Below, in pieces: positions 42,008 through 58,448 of a DNA stretch of 64,000 nucleotides. A model generated the notes under the pieces. The model saw nothing but the letters and a program-made list of their open reading frames with translations, ran no database searches and was not told the DNA's origin. The stretch's first letter is position 1. Every line of letters begins with the position of its first letter. The position numbers and the translations under genes were made by a program. This DNA comes from an uncultured Sphingomonadaceae bacterium (lineage in GTDB: Bacteria; Pseudomonadota; Alphaproteobacteria; Sphingomonadales; Sphingomonadaceae): contig CAJXSN010000011.1 in assembly GCA_913060895.1 (NCBI GenBank), positions 1 to 64,000 of the forward strand. Direction: 5' to 3'.

Positions 42008-43534
42008 CTAGCCAGCCGGAAGCAGGTTTTCCTCTGCGATACGCTTCTTCCACTGCGCCGGAGCCAGCGTATGGACATTGTTCCCTTCGCTATCGACTGC
42101 GACCGTAACCGGCATATCCTGCACGGTGAATTCGTAGATCGCCTCCATGCCCAGTTCCTCGAATGCGACGACTTTGCTTTCCTTGATCGCGCGGCTGACC
42201 AGATAGGCAGCCCCACCCGTCGCCATCAGATAGGCAACCTTGAACCGGCTGATCACTTCCACGGCATCCTGCCCGCGCTCGGCTTTACCGATCATCGCCA
42301 GCAGGCCCAGATCAAGCATGGTTTCTGTGAAGCGGTCCATCCGGGTGGCCGTGGTGGGGCCGGCGGGGCCGACGACTTCGCCCATCACCGGATCGACCGG
42401 ACCGACATAGTAAATTGCACGGCCTTTGAAATCGACTGGCAAATCCTCGCCCTTAGCCAGCATGTCCTCGATCCGTTTGTGCGCAGCATCGCGCCCGGTC
42501 AGCATCTTGCCCGACAGCAACAGGCGGTCTCCATGCTTCCAGCTGTTTACCTCTTCCTGCGTCAACGTATCCAGATCGACGCGGCGCGCCGATGCGTCCG
42601 GCTGCCACTGGACCTTTGGCCAGTCGTTCAGATCAGGCTGCTCAAGATAGCTCGGTCCGCTGCCGTCCAGCGTAAAATGCGCGTGGCGAGTGGCTGCGCA
42701 ATTGGGGATCATCGCCACCGGCTTGCCTGCAGCGTGACACGGCCAGTCCTTGATCTTCACATCGAGCACGGTGGAAAGGCCCCCCAGTCCCTGCGCACCG
42801 ACGCCCTGTGCGTTGACGGCGTCAAAAATATCGATTCGTAATTGTTCAATATCGGTTTGCGCGCCCCGCGCCTTCAGCTGACCCATGTCGATCGGGTCCA
42901 TCAGGCTTTCCTTGGCCAGGCCCATGCACCGTTCCGCCGTACCGCCGATACCGATGCCCAGCATTCCGGGCGGGCACCAGCCCGCGCCCATCGACGGAAT
43001 TTGTTCGACTACCCAATCGACGATATTGTCGCTCGGGTTCATCATTTTGAATTTCGACTTGTTTTCGCTGCCCCCGCCCTTGGCGGCGACGTCGATAGAA
43101 ACTGTATTGCCCTGCACCATCTCGACCGACAGCACGCATGGCGTATTGTCGCGCGTGTTGCGGCGGGTAAAGGCTGGGTCTGCCAGAATGGACGCACGCA
43201 GCTTGTTTTCGGAATGGTTGTACGCCTGACGCACACCCTCATCGACTACTTCCTGCAGCGCGCGCTTGCTGTCCAGACGGCAGTTCTGCCCCCATTTGAC
43301 GAACACATTCACGATGCCGGTATCCTGACAGATCGGGCGATGCCCTTCCGCGCACATCCGGCTATTGGTCAGGATTTGGGCAATCGCGTCCTTCGCAGCT
43401 TCCCCCTGCTCTGCTTCGTAAGCATCGCCGAGCGCGCGGATATAGTCCATCGGATGATAGTAGGAGATGTATTGCAGCGCGTCGCAGACACTCTCGATGA
43501 GGTCGTTTTCCGTGATTGTAATCATGTCGCTCAT
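42008..43534 (-). CDS. fumA: Fumarate hydratase class I
   Basis: 508-aa iron-sulfur (class I) fumarase, interconverting fumarate and malate in the TCA cycle. N-terminal domain motifs include RPICQDTGIVNVFVKWG with a cluster cysteine, and cysteines occur in WCPPGMLGIGIGGTAE and PNCAATRH. The C-terminal beta domain contains GPAGPTTATRMD. Length is normal. It is divergent from the pcm-tolC-popZ cluster. Confidence 0.94.
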   Translation of the reverse strand: MSDMITITENDLIESVCDALQYISYYHPMDYIRALGDAYEAEQGEAAKDAIAQILTNSRMCAEGHRPICQDTGIVNVFVKWGQNCRLDSKRALQEVVDEGVRQAYNHSENKLRASILADPAFTRRNTRDNTPCVLSVEMVQGNTVSIDVAAKGGGSENKSKFKMMNPSDNIVDWVVEQIPSMGAGWCPPGMLGIGIGGTAERCMGLAKESLMDPIDMGQLKARGAQTDIEQLRIDIFDAVNAQGVGAQGLGGLSTVLDVKIKDWPCHAAGKPVAMIPNCAATRHAHFTLDGSGPSYLEQPDLNDWPKVQWQPDASARRVDLDTLTQEEVNSWKHGDRLLLSGKMLTGRDAAHKRIEDMLAKGEDLPVDFKGRAIYYVGPVDPVMGEVVGPAGPTTATRMDRFTETMLDLGLLAMIGKAERGQDAVEVISRFKVAYLMATGGAAYLVSRAIKESKVVAFEELGMEAIYEFTVQDMPVTVAVDSEGNNVHTLAPAQWKKRIAEENLLPAG

Positions 43535-55660: not shown

Positions 55661-56254
55661 TCATCGCGGGATTATGCCCCGTTCCCGCAAGGCACCCAGT
55701 ACCGGCAGCAAAGGCATACCCAGCACAGTAAAGTGCTCGCCTATTATCCGCTCGAACAGCTGCACACCCAGTGCTTCGATGCGGAATACGCCAACACAGT
55801 GGCTGACGGCGGGCCATTCGGTATCAAGATAATGTGCGATGAAATCATCGGACAGATCGCGCATATGCAAAGTGGCCAGGCTGGGTTCCACCCAGTCGAT
55901 CGCGCCATCGCGGGCAAGGGCAGCCGCACTGTGCAGCCGCATCGGCTTGCCGGAAAAGAACCGCAGATGCTCAGCCGCTTGCTCGCGGGTTTCGGGTTTG
56001 TCGAACCGGCGTCCCTCAACCTCGACAAGAGAATCGCTGCCGAGAACCCAGCGTCCTGAATGCGCTTCCGAAACGGCGGCAGCTTTCGCCGCTGCCAGTG
56101 CCTGAGCGATTTCGGCAGGCTCCGCCCCGTCCATCGCAGCTTCCAGCCCGCGTTCGTCCACATTGGCAGGCACACATTCATGCGCTACCCCCGCACCTTC
56201 CAGCATGGCGCGGCGAGAGGCACTTTTGGAAGCAAGGATGAGTATTCCGGTCAT
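55661..56254 (-). CDS. maf: Maf/YceF nucleotide pyrophosphatase
   Basis: 197-aa Maf-family enzyme that hydrolyses non-canonical nucleoside triphosphates. [17 protein letters not shown] is the phosphate/substrate loop, and [13 protein letters not shown] is the second conserved block. Its start overlaps the ppsR stop by 4 bp. Conserved member of the hemE|ori|DUF299-maf-aroE-coaE-dnaQ gene order. Confidence 0.92.
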
Positions 56255-57138
56255 ATCGGTTTCTCTCCCGGTTTCACGCGTCTTTGGCGTTCATTGTGAA
56301 TGCGGATTATGGCTGCGGCGGTTTCTTCGATCGAGCGGCGTGTCACATCGATGACGGGCCAGTTGTTGTCGGAAAACAAGCGGCGGGCAAAGCGCACTTC
56401 ATTCTTCACCCGCTCGTTATCGACGTAATCGGTCTGCTCGCGTTCGTTCAGTGTCAGAAGGCGATTGCGGCGGATCTGGACAAGGCGTTCGGGCGCAGTG
56501 GTCAGACCCACAATGGTCGGACCCTTCAAATCGTACAATGCAGCAGGCGGAGGGCTTTCGACCACCAGCGGGATATTGGCGACCTTGTATCCGCGATTGG
56601 CGAGATAGATACTGGTAGGGGTCTTGGAACTGCGCGATACACCGGCCAGCAGGATATCGGCCTGCTCCCAGTTTTCATGCGCAGTCCCGTCATCATGGGC
56701 TATGGTGAACTGGATTGCCTCGACCCGCTCGAAATAGGCTGCGTCCATCCGGTGCTGGCGCCCGGGGCGGCCATGCGCTTCCTGACCCAGCTGCGCTTCC
56801 AGCGCCACGGTCACTGTCTCCAGAGCATCCACCGCAGGCAAAGACATTTGCCGACAACATTCTTCCAGCCGGTTTCGAGTCTCGGCATTGACCAGAGTAT
56901 AGAGAACCAACCCCGGGGCGGCCTGCAATTCGGGAACGATCCGCTCCAGATGCGCCTGGCTGCGGACCATTGGCCAGAAATGGCGCACCACATCAGTCGC
57001 CTCGAATTGGGCAAGGGCAGCCTTGGCAATCATTTCCAGCGTTTCGCCGGTGGAATCGGAAAGCAGATGCAGATGAATACGTGACAGGAGAACAGGTCCC
57101 TTTTTCAGTGCCCTTCGGCTGTGGACAACCAAGCGCAT
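56251..57138 (-). CDS. ppsR: PPDK/PEP synthase regulatory kinase-phosphatase (DUF299)
   Basis: 295-aa DUF299 protein, a bifunctional ADP-dependent kinase/Pi-dependent pyrophosphorylase acting on PEP synthase or pyruvate phosphate dikinase. [14 protein letters not shown] is the N-terminal hallmark; the P-loop-like [18 protein letters not shown] is at about residues 170-185 of this model. Homology begins only at about residue 18, and no good ribosome-binding site precedes ATG 57138. A CTG at 57087 preceded by AAGGGA would give the family-typical length of about 278 aa. The upstream open frame to 57378 belongs to the origin region and is not coding. Confidence 0.88.
57120..57128 (-). promoter_or_regulatory. 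Best DnaA-box-like 9-mer in the origin region
   Basis: TGTGGACAA differs at one position from the DnaA consensus TGTGGATAA (reverse of TTATCCACA). It lies inside the 5' end of the ppsR model if ATG 57138 is used, which argues for a later ppsR start. Confidence 0.6.
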
Positions 57139-57385
57139 AAACCACGGGAGGAAAGAGCGGACAAGCGGTGGGCAGGATTCCACCCCCACTACCTTGGTTT
57201 CTGTCAGGGTGGTTGTGGACAGGTTCGCTGGCTTGTCGACAGTCTGCGAACAGCGTGGACAGCTTTCGATTGACTCATACAGGCTGGCGAGTCGGATCGC
57301 CATCGGATGCTGGAAAACCGGTGAAGATTCGGGCAGAGGCTCGTTCTCCCCGCTTTCCACAGGGCCAACTAACACCATCAGACTC

Positions 57386-57407
57386 TACTATATATTTTAT
57401 ATTGATA
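57386..57407. other. AT-rich tract, candidate DNA unwinding element
   Basis: The tract contains TATATATTTTATATTGATA and has only two G/C in 22 bp, in a GC-rich genome. It is at the hemE-proximal edge of the origin region, 16 bp before the hemE ATG. It may also serve as hemE promoter sequence. Confidence 0.65.
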
Positions 57408-57422
57408 GGATTCTCTTCTTCG

Positions 57423-58448
57423 ATGCCTGGAATTTTGCTCGAAACATTGCGCGGGAAACGTGCCGATCAGACACCACTTTGGCTCATGCGGCAGGCAGGG
57501 CGGTATTTATCTGAATATCGCGCTCTCAGGGCAGAAAAGGGCGGATTTCTCGATCTGGTCTACGACAGCGATGCAGCTTGCGAAGTGACTTTGCAGCCGA
57601 TCCGCCGGTTTGGTTTCGACGGGGCGATCCTGTTTTCCGATATTCTGATAGTTCCGCACGCTCTGGGGCAGAAGCTGGAATTTCTGGCCGGAGAGGGACC
57701 GCGCCTTTCTCCTAAGCTAGTGGATCATGCGCTCAGCGGCCTTGAAGAGGTGCCTGAGCGTCTTGAAGCCATTTACAGGACAGTGACCAAGGTTTCCGCT
57801 GCCCTGGGCCCTGAAACCACCATGCTGGGCTTTGCAGGCAGTCCGTGGACGGTGGCGACTTACATGGTCGCGGGCGAGGGTAGCCGGGATCAGCACCAGA
57901 CCCGCGAAATGGCGTATCGTGATCCGGCGGCAATGCAGGAAATCATCGATGCGATTGTCGAAAGCTCGATCGGATATCTCTCAGGCCAGATTAAAGCCGG
58001 AGCCGAGGCAGTGCAGTTGTTCGACAGCTGGGCAGGCAGTCTGGCACCGGATCAGTTCGAACGCTGGGTTATTGCCCCCAATGCCCGGATCGTAGCGGAG
58101 CTGAAAGACCTTCACCCCGAAACGCCGATCATCGGCTTTCCCAAGGGTTCGGGAGAGAAACTGGCGGATTATGCACGGGAGACAGGGGTGGATGCGATCG
58201 GACTGGACGAAACGGTCGATCCGGCCTGGGCGCATGGCATTCTGCCATCGGGAATGCCGGTGCAGGGTAATCTCGACCCGCTGATCCTGATGAGTACGCC
58301 TGACGCCATTGCAGCGCGGGCCGTAACCATTCTGGAAACTCTTCGTGAAAGGCCGCACGTGTTCAATCTGGGCCACGGCATCGGGCAGTTTACTCCGATT
58401 GCAAATGTCGAGGCTCTGGTTGACGCCGTTCGCGGCTGGAGTGGATAG
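57423..58448 (+). CDS. hemE: Uroporphyrinogen decarboxylase
   Basis: 341-aa UroD converting uroporphyrinogen III to coproporphyrinogen III. PLWLMRQAGRYLSEYR carries the substrate-binding arginines, SDILIVPHALG the conserved aspartate, and NLGHGI the C-terminal histidine. ATG 57423 matches family N-termini; the upstream frame to 57168 runs through the origin. In Caulobacter hemE flanks the origin in the same way. hemJ follows after 56 bp. Confidence 0.95.
   Translation: MPGILLETLRGKRADQTPLWLMRQAGRYLSEYRALRAEKGGFLDLVYDSDAACEVTLQPIRRFGFDGAILFSDILIVPHALGQKLEFLAGEGPRLSPKLVDHALSGLEEVPERLEAIYRTVTKVSAALGPETTMLGFAGSPWTVATYMVAGEGSRDQHQTREMAYRDPAAMQEIIDAIVESSIGYLSGQIKAGAEAVQLFDSWAGSLAPDQFERWVIAPNARIVAELKDLHPETPIIGFPKGSGEKLADYARETGVDAIGLDETVDPAWAHGILPSGMPVQGNLDPLILMSTPDAIAARAVTILETLRERPHVFNLGHGIGQFTPIANVEALVDAVRGWSG

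Follow-up and report, generated by a model that had tools for sequence, protein, structure and literature searches.

The divergent genes ppsR (minus strand) and hemE (plus strand) lie in the window analysed here, a stretch of 64,000 bases (1-64000) of contig 11 (85,914 bases), which belongs to a sphingomonad draft genome of 2,726,470 bases in 38 contigs (99.99% complete). The two genes are separated by a gap of 338 bases (57085..57422), measured between the conserved start of PpsR and the ATG of hemE. The left boundary gene, ppsR (Kinase-PPPase, DUF299/COG1806; 56251..57084, minus strand), matches PF03618 (E 6.1e-95), and Pfam places maf, aroE, coaE and a DnaQ-like exonuclease after it on the same strand, which confirms the predicted order of maf-aroE-coaE-dnaQ following the DUF299 gene. 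The right boundary gene, hemE (57423..58448, plus strand; PF01208, E 4.8e-114; TIGR01464), begins with ATG at 57423 and is followed on the plus strand by hemJ (UPF0093) and rho, both assigned by Pfam, and beyond rho the same contig encodes mnmE, mnmG, rsmG, parA and parB. Three reading frames cross the gap without a Pfam match at E 0.1, leaving no credible protein gene inside it, and Rfam gives no match at E 1 over 56800-57700, in agreement with the divergent genes and the gap without a credible gene described in the original prediction.

The exact start codon of ppsR is uncertain. Its reading frame spans 56251-57378 on the minus strand and the conserved SRIHLHLL start lies at 57084, where the codon is CTG (57084-57086, minus strand), most relatives having ATG. 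PpsR is initiated either at this CTG or at an upstream start such as the in-frame ATG near 57139, in which case the DnaA box 1 described below would fall inside ppsR. Probable sequencing adapter, presumably Nextera, was observed at bases 1-49 of the window, in the last ~50 bases of contig 11 and in the first ~38 bases of contig 21; these ends look like an assembly leftover and not genome sequence.

Conservation of the gap among relatives

From at least 563 confirmed hemE loci of relatives, the best 80 were kept, mostly from Erythrobacteraceae, Novosphingobium and other sphingomonads, and the products of these best loci share 69-77% identity with the HemE of the window. The divergent ppsR-hemE pair is kept in all 80 of them, and the position of the gap between hemE and a COG1806/DUF299 gene, as in Caulobacter and Rickettsia, is thus upheld by both Pfam and the relatives. 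Gap length is 299-437 bases in 78 of the 80, the exceptions being L078 (540) and L061 (979), which have additional sequence on the ppsR side and keep TGTGGA sites and the AT-rich end before hemE. In L061, L078 and L081, where the calculated start of hemE falls on a codon other than ATG, the ends of the gap are approximate. Counts below refer to 81 gaps (the window and its 80 relatives) or to an alignment of 79 rows that includes the window and omits L061 and L078 for their length; conserved blocks are present throughout this alignment.

A wider sample was drawn from the class (115 genomes, 87 of them with a hemE match), in which the 30 best-scoring loci were opened, leaving 29 further loci after removal of the window's own, one of them from the same family as the window. 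The divergent ppsR is found in 24 of these best-scoring 29, with gaps of 330-686 bases; in the other five, it was not found within 1.5 kb upstream of hemE. Four of the 24 class gaps (L154, L164, L170 and L177) have no 9-mer within one mismatch of the DnaA box consensus TTATCCACA.

DnaA boxes, AT-rich tract and a conserved 15-base element

As originally predicted, the gap contains four degenerate DnaA-like 9-mers when scored against TTATCCACA with a cut-off of two mismatches. These are box 1 (TTGTCCACA; 57120..57128, minus strand), the only 9-mer at one mismatch, and box 2 (CTGTCCACA; 57214..57222, minus strand), box 3 (TTGTCGACA; 57233..57241, plus strand) and box 5 (CTTTCCACA; 57353..57361, plus strand), all within two mismatches, of which boxes 2 and 3 are regarded as weak. 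A further weak candidate, box 4 (CTGTCCACG; 57254..57262, minus strand), has three mismatches, and no 9-mer of the gap matches TTATCCACA exactly. The two outer boxes have conserved cores: the plus-strand sequence at box 1 is TGTGGA in 77 of the 79 aligned rows, with a single letter differing in the other two, and box 5 reads TCCAC in all 79, followed by the final A in 78. Conservation of boxes 2-4 is only partial, box 2 having a plus-strand ACA in 78/79 rows and variable middle letters. The density of TCCACA/TGTGGA in the 85.9-kb contig peaks at the gap (three in 340 bases, the runner-up having two), and the 64-kb window is not box-rich overall, with 4 one-mismatch boxes vs 6.6 expected and 117 two-mismatch boxes vs 101 expected, the latter number being reached in 4/100 shuffles. 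The gap appears to hold several DnaA boxes, degenerate but with conserved cores.

The original prediction also had the boxes share GTGGACA and took this for a local preference of DnaA. The motif is present in two of the four 9-mers and missing from those at 57233 and 57353; it occurs three times in the gap and eight times in the window, vs 5.15 expected per 64 kb, which corresponds to ~0.03 for a stretch of gap length. The proposed preference is rejected, because the key letter at box 1 may be C, T, G or A in the aligned relatives (32, 23, 14 and 10 rows, respectively). At box 4 it is likewise variable (T 37, C 21, A 13, G 8), and box 2 is the sole box where it is nearly fixed (C in 78/79). 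The DnaA protein of the source genome also speaks against a special preference, carrying GGRDHSTVIHA, taken here to be the usual DnaA signature.

Beside hemE, and faced by box 5, lies an AT-rich tract (57377..57420), which by its composition is a candidate unwinding element. Nowhere else in the contig of 85,914 bases does a 30-base stretch reach so high an AT content, which bears out the isolated tract of the original prediction; the maximum at 20 bases is shared with one other place (260), and that at 40 bases has one tie (69504-69549). DnaA-trios, a further unwinding signal described in PMC8287927 and PMC10225481, were sought as at least three trios no more than 16 bases from a DnaA box. The window has one trio, and 16 of the 81 gaps pass vs 28.3 expected in shuffles, so a basal unwinding system of trios after box 5 was rejected as rarer than in shuffles.

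Six bases past box 1 lies a conserved 15-base element, GCATAAACCACGGGA (57135..57149), which is present with at most two mismatches in 76/81 gaps vs 0/81 shuffled gaps (one mononucleotide shuffle each). The remaining five (L019, L061, L074, L078 and L081) have at least four mismatches, the deviation in L019 looking like a one-base deletion, and in the same-family genome L149 the core was not found within three mismatches. Of 296 genomes of the order, 55 contain an exact match to box 1 together with the element, always as a single copy, and the reversed-pattern control gave none. The element may include a weak DnaA-like site, TAAACCACG (57138-57146, plus strand), which would face box 1, and base pairing of the element with box 1 is possible (CTGTGG with CCACGG). 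The pattern TNTCCACAGGGCCAACA was found in 0/190 genomes of the class; since it is absent from the window itself and only three family members were drawn, including the window's own genome, this shows no more than that the block is not general in the class.

Probable placement of the chromosomal origin

Only three parS-like 14-mers (at most one mismatch) occur in the draft genome, all on contig 11 and 7.8-11.3 kb from hemE: at 65185 (between mnmE and mnmG), 67305 (in rsmG) and 68680 (in parB). Of 16 parS-like sites in five relatives, 14 lie no farther than 11 kb from hemE and two are ~49 and ~185 kb off. One of these five genomes, G005, also has two matches to the reversed parS control pattern.

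The GC skew of Erythrobacter rubeus was sampled in 40 stretches of 20 kb along its 3.04-Mb contig, the terminus being assumed to lie opposite. Right of hemE, 17/20 stretches have positive skew, and left of it 16/20 have negative skew; the best split is at 2,680,000 (in 20-kb steps), where hemE starts at 2,677,072, with almost equal scores for steps between 2.60 and 2.74 Mb. The skew of the window's own contig changes sign at the gap, from -0.031 on its left to +0.022 on its right; this is not counted as proof, since the cumulative minimum is at 43,429, ~14 kb away. That minimum (-1082) is almost level with the value at the gap (-1063), and the contig's own skew therefore does not single out the gap. 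The skew check suggested beforehand favours hemE in the sampled relative and is ambiguous in the contig itself.

The location is an ordinary one, because this position is already known as an origin in relatives. The hemE origin is a known kind in alphaproteobacteria and is already in print for Sphingomonadaceae (PMC4741004), an oriC close to hemE being predicted there for most Sphingomonadaceae of DoriC. In Caulobacter crescentus, Cori is likewise bounded by hemE and COG1806/DUF299 and has DnaA boxes and an AT-rich stretch (PMC1914354), as well as GANTC motifs (PMC3973325); it differs from the gap of the window by its five CtrA sites and its IHF site (PMC1914354). The origin of Rickettsia prowazekii is also located between hemE and COG1806, and the hemE origins of Caulobacter and Rickettsia are described with DnaA, CtrA and IHF sites (PMC1914354). 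For Sphingopyxis granuli TFA and other Sphingomonadaceae, the predicted oriC lies near hemE and includes a putative DUE as well as DnaA boxes that are conserved, the accessible part of PMC4741004 mentioning neither GANTC nor GCATAAACCACGGGA. All three are compared here by their published descriptions.

The conservation of the gap could also be due solely to the divergent promoters of ppsR and hemE, with the origin elsewhere. Consistent with this, some conserved blocks have promoter-like spacing: the GACAAG block (57160..57165) may be a minus-strand -35 (CTTGTC) paired with TTTATG for ppsR, GCATAAACCACGGGA fitting the spacer and possibly overlapping this promoter, and on the plus strand TTGAC with GAGTC 19 bases from its start (57270..57293, the GANTC at 57289) may belong to a hemE promoter. 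The conservation of the gap is moreover only somewhat above that of the gap between hemJ and rho in these loci, with a mean identity of 0.584 (22 rows) vs 0.523 (21 rows) and 59/315 vs 19/146 invariant columns. Promoters by themselves would not account for the parS sites adjoining the gap, the DnaA cores conserved in 79 rows, the AT maximum of the contig, the split of the E. rubeus skew at hemE, or the divergent pair kept in 24/29 class loci, and this explanation is very improbable; promoters may well coexist with an origin in the gap. Even less probable is that the gap serves mainly a small RNA and is not the origin itself. The Caulobacter origin does give rise to such an RNA, CcnA (PMC8959179), but here the Rfam search was negative and a consensus fold of 22 of the 81 gaps gave nine pairs, none with compensatory changes, so a small RNA was rejected as the main content of the gap, where an RNA may still be additional to the origin. 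Equally hard to credit is an origin near dnaA, which often adjoins oriC in other bacteria: the single dnaA gene is on contig 21 (29,064 bases), and 20 kb of that contig have no box cluster, let alone a better one, with at most two TCCACA/TGTGGA per 340 bases and two one-mismatch boxes that are 8 kb apart, one of them within adapter sequence.

Because of the gene order, the conserved box cores, the parS sites nearby, the lack of a box cluster in 20 kb around dnaA and the skew of a relative, here it is proposed that the ppsR-hemE gap is, almost certainly, the chromosomal origin (oriC) of this sphingomonad, as had been predicted. In the proposed mechanism, DnaA, made elsewhere on the chromosome, would bind the nearly invariant outer boxes 1 (57120) and 5 (57353) as well as the weaker sites between them; the AT tract faced by box 5 would melt and the helicase would be loaded on the hemE side, after which the new origins would be segregated by ParB bound at the three parS sites, 8-11 kb distant.

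GANTC sites and possible cell-cycle control

GANTC motifs cluster in the gap of the window, at 57176, 57272, 57289, 57326, 57381 and 57409. These six compare with 1.9 expected from dinucleotide shuffles, and 338-base stretches of the contig clear of the gap have at most four. Over the 81 gaps the number ranges from 2 to 12, with a mean of 4.74 vs 1.47 expected, and is above expectation in every one; in 23 gaps outside the family the mean is 3.5 vs 0.69 from flank density. Relative to the rest of the 80 loci, the gap-to-flank ratio of GANTC is 6.6, the second highest of 16 palindromic pentamers after TA.TA, whose first rank is explained by the AT tract. The enrichment is not uniform: in 44/80 loci the gap has more sites than any other stretch of the locus, and in 58 it has at least as many; some gaps are unexceptional in number, such as that of E. 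rubeus, with two GANTC, as many or more being found in 336 of 4720 sampled stretches of equal length. The site at 57289 has the same place in 79/79 aligned gaps, and TTGAC precedes a GANTC by 18 or 19 bases in 57/81 gaps; 13 gaps lack any such pair at up to 40 bases. Several GANTC motifs are known from the origin of Caulobacter and its close relatives (PMC3973325). In the literature searched, mostly open-access papers, nothing was found that describes a GANTC site as invariant among the origins of sphingomonads.

Exact CtrA sites (TTAA-N7-TTAA, exact consensus only) are absent from all 81 gaps and present in two of the 23 gaps outside the family (L163 and L166), and one form of the IHF consensus is found in 1/81 gaps; both were looked for and rejected in the gap of the window, where none was found. 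By these patterns, the gap does not appear to be a Caulobacter-type Cori under CtrA control. The Caulobacter origin is repressed by CtrA (PMC8959179, PMC1914354), and loss of CtrA is described in PMC8116508 as harmless to growth in Sphingomonas melonis.

The source genome encodes GcrA (PF07750) and a CcrM-like methylase with N6_N4_Mtase and RAMA domains, for which the best NCBIfam model is CcrM, at 596 bits, below the cut-off of 830. As a speculative and rather unlikely possibility, the cell-cycle input to the sphingomonad oriC would be DNA methylation, with the CcrM site at 57289 and GcrA licensing replication once per cycle. Together with GcrA, the site would turn on (or shut off) transcription running across box 5 and the AT tract, and would do so in one methylation state only. 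Control by hemimethylation has been suggested for ori2 of Agrobacterium (PMC11514494), and CcrM is not required for controlling initiation in Caulobacter (PMC3973325). The general enrichment of GANTC in intergenic DNA (PMC8116508) counts against a special role of these sites here, as do the unexceptional numbers in some gaps.

The origin of this draft genome would thereby be placed, and the bases held fast in the sphingomonad origin are the two outer DnaA cores, the 15-base element and a CcrM site. Lacking exact CtrA sites but having a CcrM site in all aligned relatives, such an origin may make an alternative to CtrA control testable in sphingomonads.
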